Positions 35,701 through 64,000 of a DNA stretch of 64,000 bases are shown piece by piece. The notes beneath the pieces were generated by a model. That model had not been told where the DNA came from and searched no databases. It worked only from the letters and a program-made list of their open reading frames with translations. Where the stretch lies: positions 7,571,172 to 7,635,171 of the forward strand of contig CM041201.1 of NCBI GenBank assembly GCA_023078555.1, given 5' to 3'. Each line of letters opens with the position of its first letter. The first letter of the stretch is position 1. Source of the DNA: Ulva prolifera. Its lineage: Eukaryota; Chlorophyta; Ulvophyceae; Ulvales; Ulvaceae. Made by a program: the position numbers and the translations under genes.

Positions 35701-38700
35701 CGCTGCTGCCATAGACGACGCACATGTCAGCCTGGGCGAACACGTGATCACTGCGGACGCAAGCGGCTGTGGTGTTCCTAGTTTGCGTGAGGGTGGCGGT
35801 GCGCGTGAGGGTAGCGGTGTGGATGCACATCCCGTGCAGCGACTGCATGCCCATGCAACGATGGTTGCCGCCGCTGGGGGTAGAGATACGCCTGGAGTCT
35901 CGGAGGGCGAAACCGTCCAGCATGACTCCTACGCGGACACAGACGGCGACGACGAGTCTTATGTACCATCGGAGCCCGGGTCAGCGCCCAGGAGCCCTCG
36001 TGGGGTGATGTCATCTGATGACGGCGACCGTGCGGCCCCCATCAGCCCCCCAAGGGGGGACGTTTCACCTGGTCATGGCGGCAGCGATAGCGATGTCAGG
36101 ACTGTGCGCGAGACACGTGAAGGTGATGAGGTCGCGGAGCTGCATCGTCTCGGAGACCTTCTTGACAGCCCCCAGATGTATGCAAGGTGTGAAAACGCTG
36201 CATTCTTGTGCTCTGTGCGCACGTAGCATTGCCCAAAGAGGTTGCACATGACGTCACAACACCGTCACTACTTGCTGCATTGAGCCTAACCTGTCCTGCA
36301 GAGTCATGTGCAGCAGCATGGACACCGCGGCTGTGGCCCACGACGACGTCGTCATGCCTCGCCGTGAGATGCAAGTCCGCGGCCTAGCCGCGCAATGGTC
36401 GGTTTATTGGTCCGAAGTCGACCTAGAATGGTACAAGTGCATACCATGCAAGAGTCTCGACAACCAAGAAGCAGCTGCGAGGATCGCGCTCACGTTTGCG
36501 CGAGCCTACCTGGCGGCGTTAGTTTCGGGACAGGACGACCCGGCTTTTCACACACAGGGTGACGAGTCGCGTTCCACGCCGGCAAGTATCCTGAATACTA
36601 TCACACAGGGCGCGAATGCCAGAGGCGAGGTGTCGATGAGCGACATTGTCGCCACTTTCGAGAAGTGCCCCGGGCGGATCTTTTGTCAGACCCTGACGTT
36701 GTTGACATGGGCCGGCCACATTGGGAGCTTCAACACGCTCGCCAGGTACAAGTACACCTTATCTCAGGTGGTGTATGCGTATTGGGAGGACCGGCAGCGG
36801 CTGTTTCGCGTCGACGCCGACAAGGCTCAGGTGTGCCCCTCCCCCACCGTGGCATTGCGGCAACTGCTATAGATCGGCTTTGTCCACTACGTGGTCATAT
36901 GCACCCGTCGGGGTCAGCGTGCGTGTTGTTGTTGTGCGACTGTGCGCAGTTTGTGTGATGCCATCCAATCGTCACGCCAGCATACAGCGAGGGAGCCTCA
37001 TCGCCATGCAGGCTAGCATGAAAGCCAGCCACCTCTTTCATTTCTTCAAGGGACAAGTGCGGCTGTATGTGATGGCCCTGAAGGCGAACGGCGCGCTGAA
37101 CACGCTGAAGCCAAAGCCGATGCAAGCCGCCGAGATCCGCAGCTGCGCGGAGGCAACCAATTGCGGCGCCATCACAATAATCTATGGCCGGGTGACGGCG
37201 TACCTGAAGATGTTGGCTGGGCCGCGGAACCCCGTCTTCGTGGCGCTCAGATGGGGGCATGTCCACTTCATCCCTACGTACTACATGGACGAGGCAAGTA
37301 AGGAGACAATGGTGAGAATTACCTCAGCTGGCCGTGTTCATGGGACTGCATGTGCATGTTGCTGCCTTTCATCGAACCCAGCGTTGCTGCCTCATGGGAT
37401 TCCCGTGTGCATGCGGAGCAGTACCTCCAATGTGCGCGTGGCGTGTGGTAGCTGTTATATGCCTCGAATGAAACGATGTGTTCAACGGGGCCACTGTGAG
37501 CAGGTCACCTTTATGTGCGAGTTTGCCATCGCGTGGGACAAGTCTCCCAACGTCTTTGGGATCAAGAACATCGTCGTGGACAACACAGCAGCGCTGAATG
37601 AGGAGGACGCCGACTGGAACTGCAGCTTGGGTTCCGTCGGGGAACACTTGTTGTCAATCGCCATTCACCAGCGCGTCATTGATGTGACGGACCTAGCTGG
37701 CTTGAAGGTAGGAGAGCACTTCAAGCTGAGCCACCTCATTCAGAAGCGCAACTCCAGGTCCACCCGGCCGAACAATCTTGCTCCAGCGGACGTGGATGCC
37801 ATGTGCGATCCGCGACCGGGCTGTTGTTGTTGTGTTGTGTGGGACAGCTACATGTCTGCACATTCTACAGATCACCACATGCTCACCTGCTGTCACTTGC
37901 GCTGCTGCAGTGTGTGATTGCTTGTGTGCGGGGAGGGCGACCCATGCCGTGAACTCACATGTCACCTCGCACGCACAGGTGGCAACGGACCCTATGAGCT
38001 ACATGCAGGTTCTGCTTCTGCCGGTTCCATGGGATGGTGCCGTTGCGATTCATACCCATGGCGCCATACGCCATGTCGGCTCTGTTGGCGCGGTTCACCG
38101 CAGCCGCTGACAAGAAAGCCCTGCAAAAGGAGATGCGTTCCGGCTCGGTGTTCGGGCGCATGGCGCAGGCCCAGTTGCACTACAACGGCCATGAGAATCG
38201 GACCTCATTGGCAAACAATGGGCAGTGGTCCCTGAATTGTAGCACGTACCAAACGGAGTACTGCCACCCCGCATTCCTGAATTCGCTGTTCGGAGATCTG
38301 GTGCGCCCTGAATTGTAGCCAGCACACAGCGGCGCACGTGCTTTTGTCCGTTGTGATGGCATCCATTGCTTCTGCCAAAGCTGGTTCTGTTGTATGTGCT
38401 TGCCCGCCAGGCTGGTAGTGCGCGTCTCACATGTAGAACCATACGCCCTGTTGGGGACCCACGGGCATGGCTAGCAAGTATGTGTGCCATGATGCGAAAG
38501 GTGATCGTGCATACTGTGCAGCCTTTGACGGATCATGGTGTGCCATCTGCAATGAAGAACCTCGTCAAGGCTGCTGCTTTCAAGGCCTTGTGCGTGGAAC
38601 GAGACGAGAACCCGTACGCCCTGGCGTTGTACTTGCACGCAGCCGTGGGCAACCTGTTTCTGCAAAGTGCGGAGGGGAGGCGACAACTGCGAGCGGCGGA

Positions 38701-41700
38701 TGAGCACGGCAAGGCCGTTCTCAACGCCAGCGTTCGGGCTATCCAGGACCAGTCGCATGGCGCATTCGCTGCATACGGCTGGACGCTCATCCGCAAGCTG
38801 CACCCCGACGGTCCAGGGCAGCTTCACCTGTGGGGGAAAGAGGAAAACAGGCCTGCTGAGGACAGCCCTGGTGTGCATCTCATGTGTTGGTCCCGGCGTC
38901 GCCTGCCGACTATGCATGTAGGTGGTGCTACCACCGACTGCAGACTGCAAACCCTTCCTGCGGCGCATGGGTGTGTGCAGTGCGGGGCCAACACAGCAGC
39001 CCGACCGGTTTGATACCGGGCACTCCATGCGTCCACAGGGACGGGGTGTGTCATGCATGGGCGCTCAAACCAACCGAGCAGCAAGGATCGTGCACATGCA
39101 TGCCGAGTCGACGGTAATCAATGTGCTACTGGTCAGCGGCCCGACGGCGGCCCGACAGCCGGGGTGTCTACAGGGGGATCGATAGAGAGCTCGCGCAGTG
39201 GAGCACTTTTGATGCAGCAGCCATGTATGCATCGGTGCTGTGGCCGGCTTGCACTTACATACTGCATCGCATGCCGCTGTGTGTGCGAGACTATAGTATG
39301 TATGGGTCCCACGGCAATGTCAGGTATGTGCCACTGGTCCCACACAGTACGCTCATGTGTGTGCATTCTGTGCAGGGGAGCTTAAGAGATTCTGCATGAT
39401 GTTGGGGACTGCCGACGAGGTCCAAACAGCATGGCTGGGCCAACTTGAGAGCGCCGGTGAAGAGCATGGCGTGGCCCTGCGTGACATGTTGAGCACTGCC
39501 AGTGGCTGCAAGGTTTCGACGTCGCTGGAGGCCATGCGGACGGTGGGAGAAACCATCGCCGCAGATGTGTACGAGCACCTCCTCGACCCTGACGCCCAGG
39601 TGGAGGGCAACACTGTCGAGGACATTGCGGAAGAAGTTGACCTCTGTCGCTTCGGGCAAGAGCTCTCATGCGCGCAGCTCTTTGGGCCGGCAGGGGACTT
39701 CTTGGTGGAGCGCATGCGGAAGCGGAAGTGTGTGTACAATGCCGATGCCATGCGGCGGAAGCGCCTGGCCAAGTTGCGCGTCGGAGACATTGAAGTGGAG
39801 GTGCGTGCATCTGTTTCTCTTTGTCTGCACGCCCGCTGCACCACATGTGTGCGTGCCGGGACTATGCTCCCAATGCGGGGGGTGGGTGGTGTATGTGCTT
39901 GTGCACGTGGGCAACAACATTGCCATCCATCAGAGCCCACCCTGTTGCCCCACAGCAACCAGCACCATTGGCGCGGTGCCTGTATGCAGGTGACTACGGA
40001 AGGACTCAACGCCATCCTGATGCATCGTAAGGCGGCACTGCAGAGGTTCAGCGTTGCGGTGCAGAGACCGCCGACGCTGCGCATGGCCGACTGGGTGTGC
40101 TCCGCCGGTGGAGATGTCTTCGACGGCATCCTGCGACACATCCGAGAGGGCGGCCGTGGCCTGGAGCACATGCTGCAATACCTACGCCTTGGTGCGATCC
40201 TGACTCCTTGGTGTGTATTTGCAACGTGGTGGCACCATGGACCCTGACTAATTGAAGGTATGCTGGACGTGCTTGTTATGCATGTCAATGAGCATCAGCA
40301 CCGCGGTGTATGGTCCATGGTTGCGAGAGGTGGAATTGGCACACTGTCACAACTCGGTGTTGGCATCATGCGTAATGGCATGCCGATCGAAGAGGACAAT
40401 ACTCGCCGCTGTTGCAGATAAGGCACCGACGCCGGTGGTAGTGCGGAGCTACAAGTCTCTTGACGTGGCCGACCCGTTAAAGCGGCTCCAAGGGAAGTGC
40501 CTGGCGGTCGACCCGAAGAAGGTAGCAGCTGGAGCTGTGGGCGTTGACGAGCTGTGCCTCGCAGACACTACGGGAGGGGCCAGCCAGCGGTTTCACCTGT
40601 GCCTGCCCCACTTGAGGAAGCCGCTGTTGCTGATCGAGGACTTCCAGGGCACCGGCACCGCACGGTTTGTGCGGTACTGCAGCAACACGCAGCACAGGCG
40701 GCTGATGGACATCGCGAACTTCACAGGGTTCGCGACGGTGTGTGACGCGCATCAAACAGGCGCGACGCTACTCGGCCGGAAAGCGGTGCTGCCGTCGGCC
40801 GGAGAGGAGTTCCACGGGGTGGCAGCTACCGACCTCCGGCTTGACACACTTGTCGCCGGGTCTCCAAACACCCACCGCCGCGACCTGGAGCGCTGCGATG
40901 TCAGCGTGTGCGAGAAGGAACCCGATCGCCGGAAGACTGTCACAGGGTTGTGCCGGAAGCACGTCAAGGTGTGCTACGCATGTATGGCTAGCGTGCCATG
41001 TGCATGCTCTTGACGATGGCCTGAGGTTCTTCAGCGGATTTTATGCACTGACGCTGAAGTTATAGCCGTATGTGGTTCTTAGTTTCAGGTTCTCGTCATG
41101 TAGTCGTGAGCCGGCTGACGTGGCGTGTGCTGCAGGTTCCACGGGTGATCGACGCGAAAGGCGTCGCAGCGGTGACTTGCAGTCGCTATTATAACCTGAA
41201 GGAGCACGGCCTCTTCCCAGATGCGCAGCGCAACTGGAAGAGGCAGTGCTGTGTGTGTCTGGAGCTGGATTCCCCGCAGCAGCCGCAGGACGCGCGCGTG
41301 CTTCCGGCACTGCCACGCCCCCCTTCCGGCGCGCTGGTGATGATCACGGGCAGGATGCCGGCGGGCGCGCTCTGGCCAGGGCCGTTGACCGGGGCTCGGT
41401 GCGCGGTGTACGTGTGGCAGGCAGCTGACGGGGGCCGGTATGTGCCGTGCCCTAACAGTGTGATGACAGCGAAGGGCCACCCGCACGGTTCCCGCACGTG
41501 TGCGGAGCACAGAGGATGCGTCGTGCATCACACGGACGCGCACGTGACATGCGCGAAGAAATATTGCACTGACTGTCCGGCATGGAAGATCGAAGATGCG
41601 TGGGTGACAAGGGCAGACGGCACGTATGTGAGGAAAGCGTGTGACGATTGCGCGGCGAAGAGAGCGGCAAAGCGGGAGGGCGCGCGGCTGCGGAAGCAAG

Positions 41701-44700
41701 GCGCGCAAGCGGTTCAGCCCCTGACCTTGCATCAGCGAGTGCCGGACCATCCAGGCGCCCTTGAGTGGCTGTTGTGGTATGAGCCAATGTCAAAGGCCAT
41801 GAGGCAGGCGGGGGGCTCGTGGGCTCGCCCGGGCGAGTGCCACGTCGTGGGCTGCAGCGGCACAATTGTGACGAGCAAGTCTAAGGTGTGCGACACGCAC
41901 AGAGATGCTGTGTTGTACCTCCAAAGCAAGGACGGCCAAGACGCGGCGGTTGTGTACCACTGTCGATCGTGCCAGATGTGGGTGGAGATCGAGCGGCTTG
42001 AAGAGGATGGCAGATGCGGGCCACGCTGCCAAGCATTCGGCAGCGACGGCGCCAAGGCGGCGGTCGCAGGCGACAAACACCTGAGGCGGGTCCTCGAGCG
42101 CCTTTGTGAGACGCCGGCTCTCGCAGATGAGCCGCCCCGGGGTCTAGCTCGTGTGCTGGGGCTGGCCACGTGCGACATGCAGACGGGAGAACCGAGTCGA
42201 TGCCACCACGTCAGCCCACACACGGGTCGGTGCACGTCGAAGATCACGGGGAGCCATGCCAGCCGCATGTGCCGGACACATTGCCATGATGTGGTGCTCA
42301 GGGTTGACGGTGGCCAGGGCCCGTCGGTGGTGTCCATCACGTGGTACTGCCCAAACCGATTTTGCCAGAAGGTGTGCAGTATCGAGGGCGTGGGCCTCGT
42401 GCGTGGCAGTTACGCGTGTGCCCGCTGCTATGAGGTGCACACGAGGCTGCAGCGACACGCTGCAGAGGCACGCCGGCTGCTGGACGAAGATGCACCCTCA
42501 TGCGACGACAGCGTCGTGCTGTCCGCTGAAGGGGAGGACGTCGGCAGCGAGTCCGATGCGTCTTCGGATTTAGACTCGGAGCCGCAAGTCATCGGCTCCA
42601 CCGAGGCTGCTGCAGAGTCGACTGAGGACGACGAGGTGCTGGCGGGGTACGACTACGGTGACGGGAGCGGGTCAGATTGCGGGGATGCTGGGTTGGCGCT
42701 CGTCGCAGGCATCACCGTCCGTCAGTCGCGACAAGACGCAGCCCACCCAACCACAGGACACGGTGGGGCCAGCACGAGCGCAGCAGCTGTCGCGCGTGCG
42801 CAGGCGCCCTCAGCAGAGGTACATGGCTCCCCGGCCGTGCCTCTCGGCTGTGTCCGGTGCCGCAATGCACCTTTGTGCAAGAAGACGCCGCCGGTTGAGC
42901 GGGTCGTGGACGGGTACTGCATCACCTGCCTGTCCAGCTTGAAGGACTGCGGCTCTGCTCTGGATGCGATCGTGTTGGTGACGACTCCAGGCACATTGGA
43001 CCGCAGCGCGGGTGCGGCATTCGCTGCTTTTCATGTGCAGCTGAGCATAAATCGGTCACATCCGTGCCTGCTCTGCACTTCCTGCCGGGTCAGGGTCTGT
43101 GTGCTGACATGGAAGTGGCCGCTCGTGCGCTAGTGTTTCAGTGGCACTGGTGCCTCGTGAAACCGTGTTCACCATCACCTGGTGACGTGCCGGGCTGTCA
43201 CCGGTGCCTCTGCGGACATGCTTCGTTGTACAATGTTTATTAATTGTATTAATACGTATCAATATGCTCTCAATCGCTTGCGATACGTGTGGTGTGCAAG
43301 TCTGGTTGTTTGTACATGTGTTGACGCGACTCCCTGTGATGCCATCCGAAGGATTGCTGTGCAGGCACTGTTGACATGATGAAACACGCACTCACGGATG
43401 ACGTCGACGAGTGCGACATCCGGCCGAGGGACGCCCTGAAGACTGACAAGGCTGCCAGGCGGAACCACCGGTAGCGTCTGCAGTACGAAGCGCTTCCAGA
43501 GGAGAAGAAGAAGGCGAAGCGGGCAAAGATGCATGCAAGTATGAAGGGACCCCGGAGCAATGCCCCCAAGGGACTCAAGAACATTCAGCAAGGCCCAATC
43601 GCAAATGCCATGCGCGGCCGATGCGCGCCCAGCCGGCACTGTGAGCATGGTACGGCTACTTGATCAAGCTCCTGTAGATGCTGTGTGTGTGTTCATTGTC
43701 CAATGTTGTGCTAGAAGTGTGTTGCTGAATTTCATGGCCTGTGTTGTATCCAATGCCGTGCTTGCCCTACTGCTGCAGTGTCCACAGGGGTGTACCTATG
43801 GAGATTGTGTACGTCATGTGCCCCGCCGGAGTGTTCCATGTGCATGCAGCATCAGCAGCGATGCGGGTCATGGACAGCCTCCACGCCTTCAAGCTGGTGG
43901 ACTGGGCGAAGGCCGCCGCGGTGTCCGACGCGGCGGTAGGGATGGTCGTGGAGACTCCGAAGTGGGTGACCAACCGCAGCCTGCAAATCTTCGCGCTGGA
44001 GATGTTCATGCCTGTCGGCTTCACGTCTCGGAAGCCCAAGGCCAGCAAGGCGCAGGCCCCACAGCGGGCTGCCTCAGCACGGCCACGCCCAGACGACGCG
44101 CTCGTGGCTCAGGCGGCGCGGATCCAAAGGTCAACGGTGGTCCGCATCGGACACGCGCAATGTCAGCAAGCAAAAGACCGCGGCGAGGATGCGCCTTCAT
44201 GTCTGACGTACTCTGTGCGCGCGGTGCACTTGAAGTGCGCACAGAGCATGACGGAGCCGCTGCGCAGGATCGGCACGGTGGACGTGCGGTATCTGCAGCT
44301 CGCGCGAGACGCGGGCGAGCTCCTCATCGCGCGGGTGTTCGACCCCGCCGCGCCTGCACAACCCCCCGTCCGTGTGCATGCGACGACCCTGCAGCTACTG
44401 CAGCGGCTGCAGCTGCTCCCTCGGCCGACACTCCCAGCCCTCCTGACGCTGTTTGTGTGGGGCCTCGCACACTGCAGTGTCGCTGTTCGCGAGAGCAGAG
44501 ACGCGGTGCCGCAGCTGATCTGGCACTATGCGTATGCGGAAGGCCTGACGCTGGCATGGCAGCTCGTCCTAGTCGCCGCCGGCACGACGTGGATCAACAG
44601 CGATGACGATGTCACGTCTGCGCTGTCCGTGCTGGCGTGCATCCCGCGGGCCGCCCTGATCGGGCTGGAGCAATTTGACAAGCAGAAGTGGCCGGAGATC

Positions 44701-44745
44701 CTGGACGGGCGACGCAAGCGGCGAGGCGGCGACAAACTCGAGCCG
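32786..44745 (+). pseudogene. Giant gene, copy A (nonsense codon, C-terminus lost)
   Basis: Fourteen exons match copy B in phase and nearly all in length: 32786-33051, 33272-33388, 33463-36186, 36302-36830, 37012-37311, 37504-37802, 38009-38300, 38522-38870, 39376-39800, 39990-40191, 40418-40968, 41136-43011, 43365-43649 (or 43640) and 43850-44745. Synonymous differences between the copies (for example GAA/GAG, GTC/GTT and GCA/GCG near 33290) confirm frames. A TAG at 43472-43474 replaces the GAG of copy B inside the Lys-rich exon. The downstream Gly-rich linker and helicase exons are deleted, and the acceptor for the next exon is gone. A transcript could still yield a truncated protein of about 3,000 residues if the stop is read or skipped. 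The true start lies upstream of 32786 and is not found. Confidence 0.6.
34265..34690 (+). repeat. In-frame Gly/Asp repeats of copy A
   Basis: Five imperfect peptide repeats share the core LRGGGDSGG followed by an acidic stretch (DEDGDEEG). Unit length varies from about 24 to 34 residues, and the spacer sequence differs from the 28-residue unit of copy B. The reading frame is kept. Confidence 0.85.
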
Positions 44746-45027
44746 GTGCGAGTCTGCCATAACCCAGATACTTCCCAGCTCGGCCTCAAAACAGAATTTA
44801 TGAGACTGCACTGTTCGCCCTCCTATTATCGGAGGGGCACGAGAGGGCGGCGTCACGCAGGGCCAGGGTGTCGGGTCGATGCGGCGCGCCGCAAGGATTC
44901 GTGCGGGAGCCAGCGCGGCCGCGATCGACCTGACCGGTGACGGAGGTGATCGCGCGCAGCCACCCTCCAAGCGGCGCCGCAGGAACAGCAGTCAGGGCGG
45001 CCAGGGGGACACCCATGCTCACCTGAC

Positions 45028-48440: not shown

Positions 48441-49087
48441 CCTAGAGGCGTGGAGTGCGTGTGTGCGATCGTCACGTTGACCGTTAACGATTAATTTCTG
48501 GTTCCTTGAAGTGGTACTGCGACAGGGCACGGCGTGGGCAACGACCCCGCGGCGCATTCCACTCACGTAGAATCGCATCATTACGGTGATCTCTCATAGC
48601 TACTCTGTGTGTCCCGGCTGGGGATTCTGTCGCGCGGGGCCGTGGGGGACGCCTTAGGTGCAGGCTGCAAGCTTACACAAGGTCATCGGCACGGCGAACG
48701 ACGCGCCTGCTTGCGAACATCTTCGTCGTCAACAAGGCTGTGTACATCTGGGTAGCGACGCCGGTGGATTGGGGCAATAGATGGCGGAGGTCGGCCTCAT
48801 TTCTGGAGAGGTACGCAGGTTGACAGAGAGGATAAGGCTGCATGCATATGTGCATGCATACAGTGGTGGGCCCGTGCCTGCGCGCTGCGTCGTGTACTGC
48901 ACTGGTGCACGACTAGTGCTTTGAGTCGTCAGTCGACTTGGGCAATGTACGACCAGTGCGATATACCACCAGATGTCCACTGCCTCCTACTAGTACTGTC
49001 GGCACGCTGAAGGTCGTGGCGGATCCACGTTGCCCTCAGTCGCACCAGTGTAGCTGTGCATGTGTTCACTCTGCGGTGTGCCTACAG

Positions 49088-52000
49088 GGGGAACACTGCA
49101 ACCTGGACCGGACAAGTGGGGATGACGGCGGGGTAGCAGAGTCCAGCACGGCGCTCGGGCAGTGCGAATTCAGCACGGCGCTTGACGCTGGAGGCAGCGA
49201 GGCCGTCGTGGCCCGGTGGGTGGCCCGGATGGAGGCGGTCACGGGTAGCCTGGTGCGCCATGGTCGCAGTGGGACGCGACGCAGCAAGGATACGCACCGG
49301 GGGGGGAAACGGCGCGAGCGAGAGCGTCGAGGGCGGCCTGCACCTCCGCCGAGGTGTGCACGCCCTAGCTGCTGTCAACCAACCATGCCTGAGCATATGC
49401 TGCAGCACATGTGAACCAACCATTCTTGCGCATTCACTGTGAGACAGGCAGTCCTGCACATGCGCTGTGATCCAACCATCCCTGCGCATGCGAGGTGAAC
49501 CAGCCGTTCCTGAGCATGCAATGTGAACCAGCCTTTCCTGTGCAGGTTCCCGACCGAGCCGGCACCGGCAGAGGTTGCGGGGTTGACGGTGGAGGTGTTG
49601 GCGTCGTACACCGATGACGTGCAGTGGAGTGTGCGCTGGCACGCGGTGCCCCGGGTCAAGAGGTACGTCTTTGCTCCTGTGCCCATCCCCCGCCTCGGTG
49701 GCATGTTGCAGCGCGCGAGATGCGTCGGTTTGCAGGGCGATGGCGCATTGTGTGCAAGGCAGGCGTGGCCACCATCCGAATGTCCGGCGGCTGTGGCGGC
49801 GTGAGGAGTTCCAGGATGTGGCGCGCGGGCGGCGCGGCGCCGTCCAGCGCAACGGGTGGCGCGACCAGTACGTTGCCAAGGTCAGCCTTTCGCCGGCGAC
49901 AACCGCCGGAGGTGCACGGTCACGGGCGGCGCTGGAGGGGCGCGTGCGAGCTGCACGCGCGTGGCTGCTGAACCCTGAGAGGAAGCGAGCGGTGACGGCC
50001 ACGCACACGCCGACGCGCGTGCACGTGATGGACGCGCCGGGCGATGTCACCGTGCAACAGTCGCAGTACGGGCTCGCGTGGTGCGAGGGCCTCGCACCAG
50101 CGGCGGGGTTCGACGCTGCGGGTCCGGGGACCGCCATCGGCACACCCAGTGCAGAGCGGGCGAGGCAGCTTGTGCCCGGGCGCGTCACCGCCGGCATGCA
50201 TCTCGGCTCCTGCATCGTGCGGTGTGTCCAATCCCTGCTGCGGAACGCCGTGGCTGGACCAGCTGTGCGCAGCGTTGCCAGACATGACGACGCCAGGGTC
50301 GGGCGGGTCCTGTTCATGGCAGCCCGGATGGCTGCTGTGGGCCTGGCTGCTGCGGAGATGCACCGTGCAGGAAGATCCCCTGGATGGTCCACCGCTCCGC
50401 CCTCGTATGCCATCTTGGCAAGATCCGAAGCTGCAACTGGTGCGAAAGACTCCCATGGGGAGCTGGCTACATCCGCCTCCTGCAGTGGTGCCAGGCTCGA
50501 GGAAGGCGCGGATTGCAGCGGCGTGCATGGAGATGATGGGGTCGAGGCGGGCACTGTGGATGACGCCGTCGGGGCCAGGCTGAGGGGCGGCGGTGACAGC
50601 AGCGGCATGCATGGAGATGATGGGGTCGAGGCGGGCACTGTGGATGACGCCGTCGGGGCGAGGCTGAGGGGCGGCGGTGACAGCAGCGGCGTGCATGGAG
50701 ATGATGGCGTCCAGGCGGGCACCGTGGACGACGCCGTCGGGGCCAGGCTGAGGGGCGGCGGCGCCAGCAGCGGCGCGCATGGAGATGATGGGGTCGAGGC
50801 GGGCACTGTGGATGACGCCGTCGGGGCTAGGCTGAGGGGCGGCGGTGACAGCAGCGGCGTGCATGGAGATGATGGCGTCGAGGCGGGCACCGTGGACGAC
50901 GCCGTTGGGGCCAGGCTGAGGGGCGACGGCGACAGCAGCGGCGTGCATGGAGATGATGGCGTCGAGGCGGGCACCGTGGACGACGCCGTCGGGGCCAGGC
51001 TGAGGGGCGGCGGCGACAGCAGCGACCAAGTCGGTGATGATGGCGTCGAGGCGGGCACCGGGGGTGATGGTGTTGGGGCTATGCTCCGGGGCGGCGGCGA
51101 CAGCAGTGGCAACGTCGGTGATGATGGTGACGCAAGAGTCCCGTGCAGCCCTGGTCATGCGGTGTCCACCACAGTGGATGTTACAACGGACTTCCCGGCG
51201 GTAGGGGCTGCGCCTCTCACAGCGGCGCGGCCACCAGTTCGCTTACGGACGTCACGGCATCAGAGCATGATGATGATGGGTCTTGGGAAACAGCCGCCTT
51301 GCAAGCGGTTACGTGAGGATGCGGGCGGCGTGCAAAGACAACTTGTCGATGTCAATGCCGTCGCTGCGGCTGCCTCGGGCGCCGCTGCAGGTGGGGGAGA
51401 TGCTGTCGGACCCAGCCAAGGACTAGATGTGTCGTGGATTGGGGCAGCATGTCGTGGTGGGAGTGGCGGGGTGGGCATGGAGCAAGGCGCGCGCAGGAGA
51501 TCGTGTCCAAGCAGTGTCCGTGCTGCTGTGGCCCTGTCCAAGAGTGTCCTTGATGATTCTGAAGAAGATGTACCTCCGTTGGCCATTCCTGCAGGGCAGT
51601 CATCGGTGCAGCCGGTGGGGGAGGCGGCGGAAAGGCCAAGTGTTTGGTCAGTTCCAACAAGTGCGGCCGTCCCTGAGCGTCATGGAGGGCACAGACGTCG
51701 GACTACTCGTGGGCGAGCCCAAGACACATCGCGTGGTCGTCACCGCCCTGTCATCAAGCTCGGCCCATGGCCTGATGCTGCGGGCGTTCATCTTCAAGGA
51801 CCTGCTATGCACCAAAGCAGCGGCGCTGCAGCAGCTCCCCGGGTTGCCAGCCCAGAAGACTCTGGTGCTGTCATCGCACCCACAGAGACAGGGGCGTCGT
51901 TGGCGGGCATGTTTGCCCCGTCCGCTTGCGCAGCTGTCACTGGCTTGCATGCAGGCACAACATCTGTGGTGGATGCCACAGTAGCGCATGTCACCCCTGT

Positions 52001-55000
52001 AGATTGCTGCAAAACCAAAGAGACTGTAGATGCGATGAGCGCCGTATTACGGGATGCAATGGCTGGGGAAGAGGGAGCGCGTGACATCGGGTGGCAAGGC
52101 GGCGGCATGGAGTCCGGACGTGCGCCTGGCATGGCGCTCGTGGACGATCATGTCGCGGCAGCCCCCCCACACGCGGTGCATGGTGCTGCGACAAGCGGTG
52201 GAGGTGCCTTGTATGGCAGTGAAGCCGGGGACACGGATCGTTCCGCTGTTCAAGTTTCCTCCAGCGAAACAGGCTCTGATGACGACGACATATCCTACGT
52301 GCCGTCTGCGGCAGGGTCTTTGCCTGCGAGCCCTGTGTTGTCTGATGCTGAGGGCGACGGCGACGACGACGTTGTGACGGTCTGCGATACCTCCCCTGCG
52401 AAGAGTGTTGGTGATGAGGTCGCGGAGCTGCACCGTCTCGGGGACCTGCTCGAACGACCAGAGCTGTATGCAAGGTGGGTAGTTGCTAAACACTTGCACC
52501 AAGCCTGTGTGCCATGTTCTATATTATAGTTATACTATAGTCTGGTTTGACTGGCATTTCTAAACTTATCATATTCACAAAATAAGGTAAATAGCCAATA
52601 GCGTGTTTGCAAAACAAGTATGTGAATGAGTTGGCCACACGCGACGCCAGCGGCGGCTCGGAGGAGCGAGGACCGAACGCAGACATGTCCGTGCAGGGTC
52701 GCGAGCAGCAGCATGGACACGGCAGCGGTGGGTCATGATGATGTGGTCATGCCCCGCAAAGAGATGCTCGTGCGCAACCTCACTGCGGGGTGGCCCGTGG
52801 TGTGGTCAGACAAAGACGCGGCGTGGTACAAGTGCATTCCTTGCCGGGATGTGCTGTCTCAGGAGGTGGCTGCGAGATGTCTGTTTACCTTTGCACGTGC
52901 ATACCTTGCAGCTTTGGGGTCTGCTCGGGACGATCCTGTGTTTGACGAACAAGGTGATGCCTCACGTGACACCCCCACTGCGCTCCTCGACGACATTCAG
53001 AAATCCCAGAACGCCAAAGGGGAGGTGACCATGGGTAGTATCGTGAAGTCCTTCAAGGGATGCTCTGGCAAAGTCTTTTGTCACACGCTGACGCTGCTGA
53101 CATGGGCTGGCCACATTGGCAGTTTCAACACACTGGCAATGTACCAGTACCATTTGTCGACGATCGTTGATGCATATTATGCAAACAAGGAGTGGATCAT
53201 TCGTGCCAGCCCCGAAGTTGCGAAGGTGTGATATTGCAATCTATCCCATAGAGTCGGATACAAACTGCCACATTTACCTTGCTGCCCTCTTGCTTCTGGT
53301 GACATGATGGTGGGTCTGTATCATCGCGTGTTGTATGTGAAACCTTGCCACTACTGACTAGCGGTACGGGGCTCAAATTTACACGGCCTGCGTGTGGCGT
53401 TTGTCCACGGCTGTCGTTATGTAGGCCCGGAGGGACGCGTCCTACCTGTTCCGAGTGTTCAGGCCGTATGTGCGGCTATACGTGATGGCCCTGAAGGCTA
53501 ATGGCGCTATCAACACACTGAAGCCGAAACCGATGCAAGCTTCCGAGCTCAGAAGCTGCGCAGAGGCAACAAACTGCGGCGCGATGACCATCATGTATGG
53601 TCGGGTGACAGCGTTCATCAAGATGTTGTCCGGGGCACGGAACCCAGTGTTTGTGGCACTACGCTGGGGCCATGTTCATTTCATCCCCACGTACTACGTC
53701 GACGAGGCGACGCGTGAGACGCTGGTGCGCGCGCGATTCTGCCATGGCCTTGGTGACTTGTCAACATGCGCATGCTGTATGATTCCACATGTCTTGGCGC
53801 GCGAGTCGATTGGTCCGCCCCGGCAGTCGTTTCTTGCTCGAGTGCGAGTCATTTGCTTTTCCGACGACAGCGCGGTGGGACCCTTGCGTGGTCTGTACGT
53901 CTCACACGGCTCTTACTGCGCAGGTCACATTCATGTGTGGCTTCTCCATTGCGTGGGATAAAAGCCCACACCACTTTGGGGTGAAGAACATCGTTGTGGA
54001 CAACACGGCCGCCCTCAACGCGGAGGACGCGGACTGGCACAACAGCCTCGGCGCAGTTGGGGAGCATCTACTGTCCATCGCGCTCCATCAACGCATCATC
54101 GATGTCGCTGATTTGGCTGGCCTCCAGATTGGTGAGAAGTTCAAGTTGAGTCACCTGCTCAAGCGTCGCAAGTCGGCCGGGGCTGGGGACCCCGATCCAT
54201 CAGCGGTCGATGCAATGTGTGCTCTTGTGGAGAATGTGGTTGTTGGCCTGTTCATTGGGGGTCTCCCACATGTGCAGGTACACATGCATGGATCCATACA
54301 CAGGTGGTGTGATGCAACACAGACACATGGTCCTCAGTGATGCATGTGGCTCATGCAGGTTTTGCTTTTGTCGCTTCCACGGCATGGTCCCTCTGCGGTA
54401 CATCCCCCTCGCGCCATTTGCTATGTCTGCGCTGCTGGCACGGTTCACCGCAGCCGCAGACAAGAAGGCACTCACGCGAGAGCTCCGGTCGGGCATGGTG
54501 TTCGGCCGCATGTTGCAAGCGCAGCTATTCCATAATGGCCACGAGAACCGTGTCTCTATTGCGAATGGCGGCCAGTGGTCGATCAACTGCGACACGTACC
54601 AAAACGAGTATCTGCACCCGGCCTTTTTGAATGCCCTGTTTGGGGATTTGGTACGCTCAGTCCTGCGGTGCATGTCGGCATTTTTGCATACCTTGCTCAC
54701 ACTGCCCCTTTGCTGCGCATGTGATCAACTGCAGCTGCTCCCTCTAGTTACGTATACGTTTGGTGTCTGTCTGGTGTGTTATCTCCAGTTATGACCGCAG
54801 TCCCCACCTGCGTGTATTTGATCCCATGCACTGCAACCAACAATCCCAACACCTCTCGACCCTCTCCGCTTGCAGTGTCTTGCGGACCTCGGGGTGCCGT
54901 CGGCGATGAAGAATCTTGTCAAAGCTGCGGCGTTCAAGGCGCTGAATGTGCAGCGCGATGAAAACCCCTACGCCTTGGCTGTGTATTTGCACGCTGCCGT

Positions 55001-58000
55001 TGGCAACTTGTTCTTGCGGAGCGCGGACGGTCGGCGGCAACTGCGAGCAGCTGACATGCATGGCAACGCCCTTCTTAACGCAAGTGTGCGAATTCACACC
55101 GCCGACTCCGAGGGTGCATTTGCGGCGTACGGGTGGACCCTCATCCGCAAGCTTCATCCCCAGGGCCCCGGACAGCTGCATCTATGGGGGGAGGAGAAGC
55201 ATAAGCCTGCAGCGAACAGCGCAGGTGTGGCGTCCTGCGTGTAGAGGATGTTGTATGTCCGTCCGAGCTTCTATTCTCCTGTGACGTGTTTTTGTTGTTC
55301 TTGCGGTGCCTGGTGTCATGCATGTTTGGCACACCCGCACAGGGGGTGTTCTGTCTCCGTCGGCCTTCGTTAGCAGCTTGGGTGTCGTGCTGTGGGGCGG
55401 ATGGTGTCCACTCGTACATCGGCGGGTTCGAGTTCCCGGGCGTATCGTACTGTACTGTGGCATGGCGCGCTATGCTGCCAGTCCCCCCCTTTCTCAACGA
55501 GCGATGTCTGTGGCGGTGTTGCAAGAGGTTTTGTGGCGTTCAGTGCCGACTGCGTGTTGTGTGCGGGCGTGTATGTGCCTACTTCATTTGCCGTTGTGCA
55601 TGGTGTGTCTGCGACCCCCACAGCGCGGCGCTGCGGCATACAAAGCCGCCACGCTCGTGTTGCGTCCCTATCTGCTAATTGCACTAATCCCTTTGCACAA
55701 CACGCTGATGCTGGGTGCATTGCGTGTAGAGGAGTTGAAGGGGTTCTGCACAATGCTGGGGACAAGTGGCGAGGTTCAAACGGCATGGCTGAGCCAGCTT
55801 GAGAACGCTGGCGGGGAGCACGGCGTTGATTTACGTGACATGCTGAGCACGGCCAGCGGGGGCAAGGTCACGTCGTCTCTGGAGGCTATGCGGGTGGTTG
55901 GAGAGACCGTTGCAGCTGATGTGTATGACCACCTCCTTGATCGTGACGCCCAGGTGGAGGGCCTCACTGTTGAGGACGTGGCGGAAGACGTTGACCTCTG
56001 TCGCTTTGGGCAAGAGCTATCGTGTGCGCAGCTGTTTGGTCCGGCAGGGGATTTCATGGTTGAGCGCATGCGGAAGCGGAAGTGTGTGTATAATGCCGAC
56101 GCCATGCGGCGGAAGCGACTCACCAAGATGCGGGTTGGAGACATTGAAGTGCAGGTGCGCATGGCTGCCAATTTTTGGTCTGTATGGTGTCTGCGATATG
56201 CGGATCGTGGCTGTAGCATGTGCTATGTTGATGTTGGCCATGACATGCGCGTCAAACTTGTTTCTGTCTGCACCTGCTTAAGATGCCTCACAGCAAAACA
56301 CACCATCAGTGTAGTTCCAACGTTCAGGTCTCGACGGAAGGTCTCAACGCCATCTTGATGCATCGCAAGGCAGTGCTGCAACACTTCAGCATTGCGGTGC
56401 AAAGACCGCCAACACTACGCATGATGGATTGGGTGTGCTCCGCTGGCGGAGGTCTCTTCATCGGTCTCCTGCGGCACATTCGTGAGGGTGGTCGGGGCCT
56501 TGAGCACATGCTGCAGTACCTACGTCTTGGTACGATCTCGACTTGTTGGTGTGCAAGGAACACAGTGGCACCTCGACTTTGAAGGCGTGCTAGTCGGTTA
56601 TGGATGTGTGTCACACATGCTTGAACGCTGTGGCATTGTTGTGTTTGTTCACGGTTGCGACAGAATGTACCACGTCTGCCTACTGCACCTACTGCACCGG
56701 TGTCACCTGATGCATGCTGAAGATGATCGGTCTTGGCGCTGCTGCAGATAAGGCACCGGTGCCAGTGGTGGTTCGCAGCTACAAATCACTTGACGTGGCC
56801 AACCCGCTGAAGCGCCTGCAAGGCAAGTGTCTGGCGGTCGACCCGAAGAAGGTGGCTGCTGGAGCTGAAGGTGCCGACGAGCTGTGCCTAACAGACACAA
56901 CAGGAGGGGCCAGCCAGCGGTTTCACCTGTGCCCACACCACCTAGGGAAGCCGCTGTTGCTGATCGAGGACTTCCATGGCACCGGCACCGCACGCTTTGT
57001 GCGGTATTGCAGCAACACGCAGCACAGGCGACTGATGGACATCGCGAACTTCACAGGGTTCGCGACGGTGTGTGACGCGCATCAAACAGGCGCGACGCTA
57101 CTCGGCCGGAAAGCGGTGCTGCCGTCGGCCGGAGAGGAGTTCCACGGGGTGGCAGCTACCGACCTCCGGCTTGACACTCTTGTCGCCGGGTCTCCAAACA
57201 CCCATCGCCGCGACCTGGAGCGCTGCGATGTCAGCGTGTGCGAGAAGGAACCCGATCGCCGGAAGACTGTCACAGGGTTGTGCCGGAAGCACGTCAAGGT
57301 GTGCTACGCATGTATGGCTAGCGTGCCATGTGCATGCTCTTGACGATGGCCTGAGGTTCTTCAGCGGATTTTATGCACTGACGCTGAAGTTATAGCCGTA
57401 TGTGGTTCTTAGTTTCAGGTTCTCGTCGTGTAGTCGTGCCTCCTGGCTGACATGGCGTGTGCTGCAGGTTCCACGGGTGATCGACGCGAAAGGCGTCGCA
57501 GCGGTGACTTGCAGTCGCTGTTATAACCTGAAGGAGCAGGGCCTCTTTCCAGATGCGCAGCGCAACTGGAAGCGGCAGTGCTGTGTGTGTCTGGAGCTGG
57601 ATTCCCCGCAGCTGCCGCAGGACGCGCGCGTGCTTCCGGCACTGCCACGCCCCCCTTCCGGCGCGCTGGTGATGATCACGGGCAGGATGCCGGCGGGCGC
57701 GCTCTGGCCAGGGCCGCTGACCGGGGCTCGGTGCGCGGTGTACGTGTGGCAGGCAGCTGACGGGGGCCGGTATGTGCCGTGCCCTAACAGTGTGATGATA
57801 GCGAAGGGCCACCCGCACGGTTCCCGCACGTGTGCGGAGCACAGAGGATGCGTCGTGCATCACACGGATGCACACGTGACATGCGCAAAGAAATATTGCA
57901 CTGACTGTCCCGCATGGAAGATCGAAGATGCGTGGGTGACACGGGCAGACGGCACGTATGTGAGGAAAGCGTGTGACGATTGCGCGGCGAAGAGAGCGGC

Positions 58001-61000
58001 AAAGCGGGAGGGCACGCGGTTGCGGAAGCAAGGCGCGCAAGCGGTTCAGCCCCTGACCTTGCATCAGCGAGTGCCGGACCATCCAGGCGCCCTTGAGTGG
58101 CTGTTGTGGTACGAGCCAATGTCAAAGGCCATGAGGGAGGCGGGAGGCTCGTGGGCTCGCCCGGGCGAGTGCCACGTCGTGGGTTGCAGCGGCACAATTG
58201 TGACGAGCAAGTCTAAGGTGTGCGACACGCACAGAGATGCTGTGTTGTACCTCCAAAGCAAGGACGGCCAAGACGCGGCGGTTGTGTACCACTGTCGATC
58301 GTGCCAGATGTGGGTGGAGATCGAGCGGCTTGAAGAGGATGGCAGATGCGGGCCACGTTGCCAAGCATTCGGCAGCGACGGCGCCAAGGCGGCGGTCGCA
58401 GGCGACAAACACCTGAGGCGGGTCCTCGAGCGCCTTTGTGAGACGCCGGCTCTCGCAGATGAGCCGCCCCGGGGTCTAGCTCGTGTGCTGGGGCTGGCCA
58501 CGTGCGACATGCAGACGGGAGAACCGAGTCGATGCCACCACGTCAGCCCACACACGGGTCGGTGCACGTCGAAGATCACGGGGAGCCATGCCAGCCGCAT
58601 GTGCCGGACACATTGCCATGATGTGGTGCTCAGGGTTGACGGTGGCCAGGGCCCGTCGGTGGTGTCCATCACGTGGTACTGCCCAAACCGATTCTGCCAG
58701 AAGGTGTGCAGTATCGAGGGCGTGGGCCTCGTGCGTGGCAGTTACGCGTGTGCCCGTTGCTATGAGGTGCACACGAGGCTGCAGCGACACGCTGCAGAGG
58801 CACGCCGGCTGCTGGACGAAGATGCACCCTCATGCGACGACAGCGTCGTGCTGTCCGCTGAAGGGGAGGACGTCGGCAGCGAGTCCGATGCGTCTTCGGA
58901 TTGGGACTCGGAGCCGCAAGTCATCGGCTCCACCGAGGCTGCTGCAGAGTCGGCTGAGGACGACGAGGTGCTGGCGGGGTACGACTACGGTGACGGGAGC
59001 GGGTCAGATTGCGGGGATGCTGGGCTGGCGCTCGTCGCAGGCATCACCGTCCGTCAGTCGCGACAAGACGCAGCCCACCCAACCACAGGACACGGTGGGG
59101 CCAGCACGAGCGCAGCAGCTGTCGCGCGTGCGCAGGCGCCCTCAGCAGAGGTACAGGGCTCCCCGGCCGTGCCTCTCGGCTGTGTCCGGTGCCGCAATGC
59201 ACCTTTGTGCAAGAAGACGCCGCCGGTTGAGCGGGTCGTGGACGGGTACTGCATCACCTGCCTGTCCAGCTTGAAGGACTGCGGCTCTGCTCTGGACGCG
59301 ATCGTGTTGGTGACGACTCCAGGCACATTGGATCGCAGCGCGGGTGCGGCATTCGCTGCTTTTCATGTGCAGCTGAGCATAAATCGGTCACATCCGTGCC
59401 TGCTCTGCACTTCCTGCCGGGTCAGGGTCTGTGTGCTGACATGGAAGTGGCCGCTCGTGCGCTAGTGTTTCAGTGGCACTGGTGCCTCGTGAAACCATGT
59501 TCACCATCACCTGGTGACGTGCCGGGCTGTCACCGGTGCCTCTGCGGACATGCTTCGTTGTACAATGTTTATTAATTGTATTAATACGTATCAATATGCT
59601 CTCAATCGCTTCCGATACGTGTGGTGTGCAAGTCTGGTTGTTTGTACATGTGTTGACGCGACTCCCTGTGATGCCATCCGAAGGATTGCTGTGCAGGCAC
59701 TGTTGACATGATGAAACACGCACTCACGGATGACGTCGACGAGTGCGACATCCGGCCGAGGGACGCCCTGAAGACTGACAAGGCTGCCAGGCGGAACCAC
59801 CGGGAGCGTCTGCAGTACGAAGCGCTTCCAGAGGAGAAGAAGAAGGTGAAGCGGGCAAAGATGCATGCAAGTATGAAGGGACCCCGGAGCAATGCCCCCA
59901 AGGGACTCAAGAACATTCAGCAAGGCCCAATCGCAAATGCCATGCGCGGCCGATGCGCGCCCAGCCGGCACTGTGAGCATGGTACGGCTACTTGATCAAG
60001 CTTCTGTAGATGCTGTGTGTGTTCATTGTCCAATGTTGTGCTAGAAGTGTGTTGCTGAATTTCATGGCCTGTGTTGTATCCAATGCCGTGCTTGCCCTAC
60101 TGTTGCAGTGTCCACAGGGGTGTACCTATGGAGACTGTGTACGTCATGTGCCCCGCCGGAGTGTTCCATGTGCATGCAGCATCATCAGCGATGCGGGTGA
60201 TGGACGGCCTCCACGCTTTCAAGCTGGTGGACTGGGTGAAGGCCGTAGCGGTGTCTGACGCGGCGGTGGGGATGGTGGTGGAGACTCCAAAGTGGGTGAC
60301 CAACCGCAGCCTGCAAATCTTCGCGCTGGAGATGTTCATGCCTGTCGGCTTCACATCTCGAAAGCCCAAGGCCAGCAAGGCGCAGGCCCCACAGGGGGCT
60401 GCCTCAGCACGGCCACGCCCAGACGACGCGCTCGTGGCTCAGGCGGCGCGGAGCCAAAGGTCAACGGTGGTCCGCATCGGACACGCGCAATGTCAGCAGG
60501 CAAAAGACCGCGGCGAGGATGCGCCCTCATGTCTGACGTACTCTGTGCGCGCGGTGCATTTGAAGTGCGCACAGAGCATGACGGAGCCGCTGCGCAGGAT
60601 CGGCACGGTGGACGTGCGGTATCTGCAGCTCGTGCGAGACGCGGGCGAGCTCCTCATCGCGCGGGTGTTCGACCCCGCCGCGCCTGCACAAACCCCCGTC
60701 CGTGTGCATGCGACGACCCTGCAGCTACTGCAGCGGCTGCAGCTGCTCCCTCGGCCGACACTCCCAGCCCTCCTGACGCTGTTTGTGTGGGGCCTCGCAC
60801 ACTGCAGTGTCGCTGTTCGCGAGAGCAGAGACGCGGTGCCGCAGCTGATCTGGCACTATGCGTATGCGGAAGGCCTGACGCTGGCATGGCAGCTCGTCCT
60901 AGTCGCCGCCGGCACGACGTGGATCAACAGCGATGACGATGTCACGTCTGCGCTGTCCGTGCTGGCGTGCATCCCGCGGGCCGCCCTGATCGGGCTGGAG

Positions 61001-64000
61001 CAATTTGACAAGCAGAAGTGGCCGGAGATCCTGGACGGGCGACGCAAGCGGCGAGGCGGCGACAAACTCGAGCCGGTGCGAGTCTGCCATAACCCAGATA
61101 CTTCCCAGCTCGGCCTCAAAACAGAATTTATGAGACTGCACTGTTCGCCCTCCTATTATCGCATGGTGTGCATTTGTCGTGTCTGTTTTCCGTAGTCATT
61201 GTACCGGGCGTGCATCGAAACCATGGCCCCGACGCCCGTGTGCATGCAGATCCCATGGTCTGACGACTGCGACCCGGAGGTCATCGTGATGACGCGTGCG
61301 ACGCCATCCGAGTTGACAGGCCTTCAGGCGGCAGCCCAAACGGACGCCACTCGGCAGCGGTTCGAATTCACCGCGGACGCGCGCGTGCGCCCGGTCGGCG
61401 ACGTCACGCAGGGCCAGGGTGTCGGGTCGATGCGGCGCGCCGCAAGGAGTCGTGCGGGAGCCAGCGCGGCCGCGATCGACCTGACCGGTAACGGAGGTGA
61501 TCGCGCGCAGCCACCCTCCAAGCGGCGCCGCAGGAACAGCAGTCAGGGCGGCCAGGGGGACACCCAGGCGGGCACTCGGGCGGGCACGAGACGCGGGTTG
61601 AGATCCGGAACCGGCGGTGGCGTGATGGTCACAGGTCCGGCCGCATCGCTGGGCGACCCTGTGCACAGGTCAGCCCCCGCAGCGCCAAAGCGTGCTCGGA
61701 GCCCCCCGCGTGGCGGGTCCCGAGGCGATCCGGGCGCCGGTCCATCGGGTGGACGTGCGGGCGGGAGCGGGGGCGAAGGAACTGGGCGCGGCAATGGCGG
61801 ACATGGAGGCTTTGACGGCGGCAATGGAGGCGGCGGCAACGGAGGCGGGTCTGACAGCGACGGTGGCGACGGAAGCGGCGGCGATGGGGGCGGCGGTAAC
61901 GGCGGTGGTGGAGGTGGCAGAAGGAGGGGCCACTGGGCTCCCGTCAACCACCGCGTGCCCATCTTTGTGCGGACACCGCAGCAGGTGTCTGAGATGCTGC
62001 AGTTGTGCAAAGACACGACGTCGAATCCATTCAGCTACAAGCTGAGGATCGGTGACCAGCCCATGCAGCCCGGCCAGAGTGTCAAAGCCATCACTGGCGC
62101 GGTGTGTACTTGTCGTGGGCGGCTGACGTGTGTGCATGCATGTGGCGCTGTGTTCTGTGAGGCTGCTTGTGCACCTTGTTCGCTGCGGAACTGTGTGTAT
62201 TTGTGTCAGTATGCCGAGACCCTCGCTGCTCTCTGATGAATAAGCCAACACGGCCCATACGTTCACCGCGTCTGATCGTATGCAGGATCTGCTTGTGGCC
62301 GGTAAGCCGGCAGCCGACCATGCGAACGGCATCATTGTGCTCGGCATGCCTGGCTCGGGCAAGACCGGGCTGATGCTGGACGCGATGGCCCTATCCATCG
62401 TCGACTCGCCGCTGCGAGCCGCAGCCCAAGGCAGCACCGCCACGCTGCCGCGGCTGACGCACGACTGTGCCAAAATCATGGTGCACAAGTCGGGCGTCAC
62501 GCACAACATCGGGTACCCCACCGAGACGTGCGCAAAGGCGATGTGTAACTACTTCTGGGAGCCCGCTGTGGAGGGTCGGCCAGCTGGGTACGTCGGCAAC
62601 GCCATCGACCGCATCGCCGGCCGGAAGCTGCATGTGCTAGAAGAGGTGCAGGCATGGGTGCAGCAGTTGCCGCATCTGCTGAGTCAGCATCAGCGAGCCC
62701 TCCAGCAGGCCAACGCGCAGTGCGAATCGGAGCATATGCTTCGCCGCTGCCGGTACATCCTGGCGTGCGACCCCCACCAGAGTCCGTGCAAGACGTACGG
62801 CATCAAGTCAATCGACCACAACGGGCGGGTGCAGCAGGAGAAGCCAGAGGTCGTGATGCCGTGGACGGCGGCGTTCAGCGCGCTCGGCCAGCCTAGCGAA
62901 AGCATGCATTGGCACATCTTTGCCATCCACGGCCAGCGACGCCTGCGTGGCCTCGGGTTCCGGCTGCTCCACAATGCGTACGCCCCACGCTGGCTGCTGT
63001 CGTGCTACCTCCATGTGATGTGCTGTGATTTGTTCTGGTCGTGCTGTGCGCTGCCTACAACCGTGACAGGGCCCGGATGTAACCGCCGCTCAGTCCAGGC
63101 CATCGGTGGGACAACTGCACATACGTCGGCTGTGACCGGCTGAGTGTATGTGCAGGTCAAGGGCAGACATTGCCACCATGCAATTCCGGAGGGTGGACCT
63201 CGCGACGGACTACTTGTTTTCCACGTGGTGCCGGTCAGACCTGCGGCAGACGCCGGCGCAGGCTGCGCAAGAGAAGTCCGGCATCAAAGGCGTTAACTAC
63301 GGCTGGGCAGCGGTGGGGGCGGACGAGGCGACATATCGCAACCCCAACTACCCGATCGACCTGTCGGGTGAAGATCGCAGCCTGCCCCCGGCGACCGTTG
63401 TCATCGCGCCGTACAAGCCGGACTGCAAGGCGCTGCGTGATATACTGCTCACGCGCGCTGACTACAAGGCGTTGTTCTACACACTGCCGGCCCTCCCGCA
63501 TGATGCCCCCTCGTGCCCTGGTGGGCCGACGACCTGCACCTTCCGAGACACAGAGTATCGCGCGGAGGATGCGTATGCATTCGAGTGCGCGCCTGCCCGG
63601 CTTCCTGTGTGATCGCGTGTGCAGGCGGCATGTGATCTGCATGTCGGGGTGCCGTGCGTCGTCTGTGCACGTCTCCTCTATTGCGGTGACTCATTCACTC
63701 CGGGTGTCTGACTGCTACGTAGGCCTGTGCGCTGCCGCTTTGAAGCTGGCTTGATGGGACACGGGTGCATGCAGTACGACGACAGACTCCGGCCGGAGGA
63801 TCGTGGGCCAGCTGGAGGACATCGCATTCTCCAGCTGGGACTCCTTCAGGGTCCACCTCGGTGAGCCCCTGCTGCTGACAGCCTGCCTCGGGGAGAGCCG
63901 ACCAAACGGTGCGGCGTGCTCGGCTGTGGCATGGGCGTTTGTGCCAGCATCGCACGTGCGGGCAGAGTTCAAAGCGCGCCTGGCCTTCATGTGCAAGAAC
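49088..64000 (+). CDS. Giant multidomain gene with SF1/Pif1-like helicase, copy B (partial)
   Basis: Eighteen exons join in phase: 49088-49353, 49546-49662, 49736-52474, 52697-53225, 53425-53724, 53924-54216, 54359-54650, 54876-55224, 55730-56154, 56328-56529, 56748-57298, 57468-59343, 59697-59981, 60180-61075, 61196-62101, 62286-62977, 63156-63584 and 63775 to the window end. All use GT-AG, and the total is 11,373 coding bases (3,791 codons). Order of parts: a basic and repeat-rich N-region (residues 1-1040), unrecognised globular exons (1041-2021), Cys-rich CxxC exon (2022-2646), Lys-rich segment, a globular exon, a Gly/Asp-rich linker with a KRRRRNSS basic patch, then the helicase from about 3343. 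Walker A is GMPGSGKTG near residue 3362, followed by LHVLEEVQAW (Walker B-like) and ILACDPHQSP (GDxxQ-like). Start and end lie outside the model. I do not recognise the family. A transposon replicase or a duplicated host gene are both possible. Confidence 0.65.
50489..51130 (+). repeat. 84-bp in-frame tandem repeat, about 8 units
   Basis: Units encode 28 residues of the form ARLRGGGDSSGVHGDDGVEA plus GTVDDAVG. The period is 84 bp (TGAGGGGCGG at 50581 and 50665). The first unit (RLEEGADCSG) and the last two are diverged. The array lies inside exon 3 of the giant gene and keeps the frame. Confidence 0.93.
57468..59343 (+). other. Cys-rich (zinc-binding-like) exon of the giant gene
   Basis: This single 1,876-bp exon carries many paired cysteines and histidines: CCVC, CTDC, CDDC, CHVVGC, CRSC, CGPRC, CRTHCH, CPNRFC, CARC, CVRCRNAPLC and CITC. 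The arrangement suggests several zinc ribbons or treble-clef modules for nucleic-acid or protein binding. An acidic Ser/Asp stretch precedes the last cluster. The copy A exon (41136-43011) has identical length and only a handful of changes. Confidence 0.6.
62286..63584 (+). other. SF1/Pif1-like helicase region of the giant gene
   Basis: Two exons (62286-62977 and 63156-63584) carry GIIVLGMPGSGKTGLMLDA (Walker A), LHVLEEVQAWVQQL (motif II position), YILACDPHQSP (motif III/GDxxQ position), HGQRRLRGLGFRLLHNA (position of the Pif1 R-Q-x5-F-x3-L motif), and TVVIAPYKPDCKALRDIL (start of the second RecA-like domain). The Walker B acid pair reads EE rather than the usual DE. The region continues into the exon that runs off the window, so later motifs are not seen. 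Confidence 0.6.

Follow-up and report, generated by a model that had tools for sequence, protein, structure and literature searches.

Eukaryotic mobile elements built around a tyrosine recombinase (YR), such as the Cryptons and DIRS elements, are little understood. In prokaryotes, the integrative elements and phages that target tRNA genes use a YR enzyme, and their tRNA-linked integration takes place at the tRNA 3' end itself. The Dada elements are transposons of the DDD/E type. Cryptons are presented in the survey by Kojima and Jurka 2011 (PMC3212892) as DNA elements with a YR as their key enzyme and no inverted termini recognised, and the word helicase occurs 0 times in the text of that survey. 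DIRS-1 of Dictyostelium is portrayed in PMC5006619 as a YR element with a preference for its own copies, which gathers in clusters and carries a reverse transcriptase/RNase H. The same source describes TRE3 and Skipper-2, dictyostelid retroelements without a YR, as inserting downstream of tRNA genes at distances of ~100 bp and ~7–136 bp, respectively. Dada DNA transposons also target tRNA genes, with insertion inside the small RNA gene, according to PMC8869645.

The window analysed here is a stretch of 64,000 nucleotides (C6:7571172-7635171) from an 88.9-Mb host genome of 44 contigs, that of the alga Ulva prolifera; positions without a contig name are window positions. We lean towards reading its right-hand part as copies of a ~21-kb, tRNA-targeting, self-clustering mobile element that would encode a YR/Cys-rich/helicase protein. 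Whether this amounts to a new class of eukaryotic DNA transposon, in which a giant YR–helicase fusion would insert downstream of tRNA genes at a constant spacing, build head-to-tail arrays through its own left end, and form the eukaryotic counterpart of the prokaryotic tRNA-targeting integrative elements, is a more tentative matter, to which we give somewhat less than an even chance.

The proposed element differs from Cryptons in its ~4,000-aa protein, with Cys-rich modules and a predicted superfamily 1 (SF1) helicase in the same frame, in its tRNA-linked clusters, and in a putative YR too divergent for a Pfam match. Unlike in DIRS-1, no reverse transcriptase model matched the element exons scanned (exons 7, 10, and 14 lay outside the in-frame scan). 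The left end lies 27–28 nt beyond the tRNA, in contrast to the insertion point of the prokaryotic tRNA-targeting elements. The open-access literature searched yielded neither a fusion of a YR with a helicase nor a YR DNA transposon sited at tRNA genes of eukaryotes. We place the element among the YR-type mobile elements as a variant, with a real chance that it forms a separate class. If the reading is right, YR self-clustering and tRNA-gene targeting, so far seen apart, would be joined in one element, and an algal genome would hold a natural site-specific integration system whose arrays make tandem-copy growth testable.

Table 1. Features of the window, in window coordinates (+, forward strand). 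Exon numbers refer to the block conserved among paralogues.
Feature	Position	Strand	Remarks
tRNA at left edge of cluster, Lys(UUU) with intron by anticodon reading	27671..27763	+	ARAGORN; Rfam tRNA 56.7 bits
Truncated element fragment	27773..27979	+	100% identical to copy B 61074-61280; 9 nt past tRNA
Unit A, without helicase and tail	28547..45027	+	Left-end motif GCTTTTGCCGC
Unit B, complete	45028..66107 (past window end)	+	21,080 bp
Tentative first coding exon (ATG)	48781..48810	+	In frame with the rest; exon and ATG context not found in copies A and D
N-terminal exon	49088..49353	+	Donor picked among those keeping the frame
N-terminal exon	49546..49662	+	
N-terminal repeat-rich exon	49736..52474	+	84-bp tandem repeat at 50515-51110, 7.1 copies
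Exon 1, possible YR N-terminal region	52697..53225	+	
Exon 2, YR-like box I (G.RNP......W)	53425..53724	+	
Exon 3, conserved DK(A/S)P..FG.K, candidate catalytic Lys hairpin	53924..54216	+	
Exon 4, YR-like box II Arg, Trp, Tyr (xxLR, GQW, YLH)	54359..54650	+	
Exon 5	54876..55224	+	
Exon 6	55730..56154	+	
Exon 7	56328..56529	+	
Exon 8, Cys cluster at its end	56748..57298	+	C2 counterpart: sub-threshold CxC6 match, E 0.065
Exon 9, Cys-rich modules	57468..59343	+	
Exon 10, Lys-rich	59697..59981	+	
Exon 11	60180..61075	+	
Exon 12, Gly-rich linker	61250..62101	+	
Exon 13, predicted SF1 helicase motifs I, II, III	62286..62977	+	
Exon 14, predicted helicase	63156..63608	+	
Exon 15, predicted helicase motif VI	63775..64000, continuing to stop 64726	+	

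The initial annotation described a single giant gene of 18 exons starting at 49088, and both points stand. Rebuilt exon by exon against the paralogue of the C2 type, with splice signals as a second guide, copy B forms a single open frame that runs from 49088 through the same number of exons and closes at 64726 with a stop, beyond the window end. From the exon at 49735/49736 onward the spliced model encodes 3,894 aa with this one stop; including three tentative 5' exons, the product reaches 4,032 aa from an ATG at 48781. The repeat-rich N-terminal region was recovered in the model, as were the Cys-rich exon, the Gly-rich linker, and the SF1 helicase, all within one gene. The claimed absence of any phase conflict needs qualifying: the frame is open throughout, but keeping it open meant shifting the donors at 54216 and 63608 and the acceptor at 60180, so that this argument is weak on its own, and we reject phase consistency by itself as proof of a single gene. 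A scarcity of TGTAA, tried as evidence for a single transcript, was not significant (2 observed vs 4.7 expected). Since no stop arises at any junction of the model, the selected coding array 49088-64726 is most likely one gene.

Three diverged families of this genome share the exon order. The C2-type copy matches all 15 exons that follow from 52697, in the same order and for 14 of them over almost the full length; the match to exon 15 stops after 209 of 316 aa, so the C-terminus of that copy is either different or truncated. Copies of the C1 and C5 types retain 12 and 13, respectively, of the 15 exons of this block in order (E < 0.01, 24–46% identity), with one stop inside the C5 match to exon 9. 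Where the junctions of B and C2 were aligned, conservation ends at the GT and restarts after the AG. Copy B is under purifying selection, with a dN/dS against C2 (Nei–Gojobori) of 0.224 over 2,840 codons (dS 1.29) and 0.107 for exons 1–7 (dS 1.94), values that are rough because dS is near saturation.

Copies within the cluster are less complete. Copy A is colinear over exons 1–11 plus 32 residues of exon 12, has no helicase, and carries one in-frame stop, in exon 10; copy D, downstream of B, is without exons 5–8 and most of exon 9. The amino acid identity of A and B is a mosaic, at 95–98% in exons 8–11 and 59–87% in exons 1–7, a pattern suggestive of recombination or gene conversion. In the DNA, 40407-44831 (A) is 97.7% identical to 56737-61161 (B), and the two are far more diverged upstream.

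The exons that the initial annotation left unrecognised have no clear Pfam match, as it had supposed (outside the helicase, Pfam gave only weak sub-threshold matches), but it overlooked a catalytic signature resembling that of tyrosine recombinases. In family alignments of the exons at 53425-54650, the conserved motifs run in the order G.RNP...W, DK(A/S)P..FG.K, F.FCR.H.M.PLR, xxxR, GQW(S/A), and Y(L/C)(H/N). As read from the residues, the motif order of exons 2–4 is the tyrosine recombinase layout of a putative box I Arg, hairpin Lys, box II, His/Trp, and Tyr. We compared the family by hhalign with a 13-member YR profile; relatives of lambda Int and Cre were mostly near-identical and were excluded from use. 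The local score was 25.2, against 18.2 for the best of 30 shuffles. Exon 2 alone scored 23.8 (best of 60 shuffles, 22.3), and exon 4 alone 15.6, a non-significant value matched by 6 of 60 shuffles. Box I was the top local match of alignment A2 and box II that of the exon 1–7 alignment, both in register.

When the alignment was forced end to end, the R, R, W, and Y that are invariant among the six family sequences fell on R148, R247, H270, and Y279 of XerD. The column of XerD H244 holds R or K in the family, in place of the box II His, and the conserved Lys of exon 3 was not placed on XerD Lys172 in this forced alignment. The control consisted of 140 shuffles of exon 4, of which seven gave no alignment and were dropped; none of the 133 scored reproduced the XerD catalytic register. 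In forced mode, one of eight unrelated blocks, a helicase block, scored higher (12.35 vs 10.27), without the catalytic columns. On these grounds the exons 53425-54650 probably encode a very divergent tyrosine recombinase, and the region of exons 2–4 would supply YR chemistry.

Database searches give this assignment no support. The YR region had no match in Pfam, PDB, or PHROG, and its hhalign probabilities were 0.4–5.7%, as against 94–99.9% for the 13 true YRs, each left out in turn. PF00589 had 0 matches in the genome, with its control positive in 14 of 14 cases; PF12012 (DUF3504/Crypton YR) also had 0 matches, in a search whose control was equally without any match. Searches by short peptide patterns turned up no viral or prokaryotic relatives, either in viral contigs (YR and helicase profiles) or in genome contigs (YR profile). 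AlphaFold runs on contiguous, unspliced frames of the window gave pLDDT values of 33 and 31. Missed homology is to be expected in the YR superfamily, since XerD as a query against PDB reaches Cre only at E 0.2–1.2. If the YR reading is right, the locus suggests that further YRs are concealed behind failed domain searches.

A domain without a database match might also be some other DNA-breaking enzyme of a mobile element, be it a DDE/KDZ-like transposase or a YR relative akin to topoisomerase IB or the protelomerases. Enzymes of the topoisomerase IB/protelomerase kind have catalytic residues in common with YRs, and one C2 exon has a sub-threshold match to the KDZ-associated cysteine cluster (Table 1). 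We nevertheless consider such an enzyme unlikely, as the catalytic residues follow the YR order and register seen in none of the scored shuffles, and no KDZ or DDE transposase model was matched.

For the C-terminal domain, profile comparison places the helicase in SF1. The exons 62286-64726 reached E 1.7e-4 and a score of 42.5 (best of 40 shuffles, 21.6) against a set composed of Dda, RecD, and four Pif1-type frames found elsewhere in this genome. In the unfiltered alignment, motifs I, II, III, and VI line up with those of SF1B helicases; the filtered one retains 36 columns only, and motif V is not aligned. The AAA_19 (SF1-type) model was matched by three of six family members (best E 7e-4). 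By these comparisons the domain is a predicted SF1 helicase of Dda/Pif1-like type. The initial label 'Pif1-like' was right as to kind, but the six genome matches of Pfam PIF1 (PF05970) all lie at other loci. The Cys-rich modules are presumably zinc-binding, and we can only infer the roles of these modules and of the helicase.

A large protein carrying an SF1 helicase is also what Helitrons and Helitron-like elements encode, together with a Rep nuclease. The Rep/HUH model Helitron_like_N matched none of the exons scanned, and its six genome matches, like those of PIF1, fall elsewhere, none in the clusters. A Helitron with a known Rep model is refuted by that absence, and a Helitron-like origin of any kind appears most improbable. 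An apparent Helitron, with a Helitron_like_N match adjoining a PIF1 match, lies at C7:394973-397500, apart from the clusters.

The initial annotation also overlooked the repeated 21-kb unit to which the gene belongs, and the tRNA-linked clusters. Units stand head to tail, and each opens with GCTTTTGCCGC and GC-rich arrays, at 28547, 45028, and 66108; unit B bears a 166-bp tandem array in its right part, at 65044-66100. One YR exon has at least 62 matches, on C1, C2, C4, C5, C6, and the small contigs C13–C43, to which helicase queries add copies on C3 (2.710 and 4.406 Mb), C1 (12.115 Mb), and C6 (5.867 Mb); such copy numbers are lower bounds. Seven clusters can be delimited: C1 3.54–3.78, C2 1.85–2.09, C4 1.06–1.10 and 6.85–6.88, C5 3.31–3.47, and C6 1.80–1.85 and 7.60–7.79 Mb. 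Within the C1 and C5 clusters, the orientation of copies is mixed. Many short unplaced contigs among C13–C43 hold near-identical C2-type copies and probably represent portions of the C2 cluster that were left unassembled.

The non-coding parts are repeated as well. The 166-bp array has at least 29 genome matches, in both C6 clusters and the C1 cluster, and the 5' region of the unit at least 37, which lie in the C6 clusters or, as weak matches, in C2 and on small contigs; among the matches listed, unit ends and the 166-bp array were found only inside element clusters. The stretches of C1, C2, and C5 examined, which may hold no unit end, did not show the left-end motif. At C1:3.63-3.77 Mb, the array of 166-bp period is ~70% like that of C6, though the proteins are only ~40% alike.

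Clusters of 25–250 kb on several big contigs, two of which have this array in common, could also be centromeres made of the element, and PMC5006619 attributes roughly half of the centromeric DNA of D. discoideum to DIRS-1, a YR element. We do not favour this reading, because two clusters occur on C6 and again on C4, and none of the matches listed falls on C7–C12; the C6 cluster also borders host genes such as TsaD. We regard it as very unlikely. The host-type genes left of the cluster (4900-27210) include TsaD at 24875-25576 (E 2.8e-43) and a JmjC gene at 12382-13368 (E 4.2e-15), and there is a sub-threshold TCF25 match on the minus strand at 6286-7704.

Clusters lie near tRNA genes. A same-strand tRNA is found within 30 kb upstream in five of the seven (C6a, the cluster of the window, C6b, C4a, C4b, and C1), a count that none of 200,000 random placements reached (maximum three), with the seven clusters and the 30-kb limit chosen after seeing the data. 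At a limit of 15 kb the count is four of seven, because the C4b tRNA is 29.1 kb away. The tRNA list behind these figures is partial, with 60 matches from 63 of 1,780 candidates scored; it has no tRNA for the C2 and C5 clusters and, by eye, no same-strand tRNA within 30 kb upstream of four single or degenerate copies, which if counted make the linked loci five of 11. The tRNAs beside clusters differ, being Lys and Thr by anticodon reading; ARAGORN in bacterial mode labels the one at 27671-27763 Stop tta.

Left flanks were read at C6b, C4a, C1, and C6a. At C6b, a unit begins cleanly 27 nt downstream of the tRNA, with 92% identity over 51 nt to the left end of unit A, and at C4a, GCTTTTTGCCGCC, near-identical to the unit left-end motif, stands at +28 nt. 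The C1 flank has a T-run at +28 and no confirmed terminus, and at C6a the fragment beside the tRNA is truncated within the gene.

Head-to-tail tandem units, the A/B mosaic, the many truncated copies, and the strong purifying selection would all suit a host multigene family that was spread by segmental and tandem duplication and never transposed itself, with tRNA genes as mere breakpoints. Against this stand the non-coding ends common to units, the same-strand tRNAs at most clusters even of diverged families, and the clean unit end at one tRNA with a near-identical motif at another, and we hold a host family to be rather improbable.

Under the preferred reading, a tRNA-targeting mobile element, the protein would recognise the tRNA-linked site, perhaps via Pol III factors, given that the adjoining tRNAs differ. 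The recombinase would then cut and join element DNA ~27–28 nt downstream of the tRNA gene, in the orientation of the tRNA; the inserted form could be a circular or linear copy, a circular intermediate being probable. Resident left ends may serve as sites for further copies, which would generate head-to-tail arrays, and the helicase may serve excision, replication, or strand opening. That the element is mobile at present is suggested by the two C6 sites, 5.8 Mb apart, with sequences up to 100% alike, a likeness that a large rearrangement could also give.

Several details concern the GC-rich parts of the unit. In both copy A and the fragment at 27773, the sequence is interrupted within the GC-rich region of exon 12 and picks up again at the GC-rich arrays, as would be consistent with deletions joining one GC-rich stretch to another. 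At the start of D (66354-66528), translation of the GC-rich array resembles helicase residues 161–181 (52% over 21 aa); D has two such stretches and A has one, as though helicase DNA had seeded the array at unit starts. Finally, ~914 bp present in unit D (C6:7639959-7640872) are missing from the near-identical unit A (break at 31222/31223), and this insert is possibly another small mobile element.
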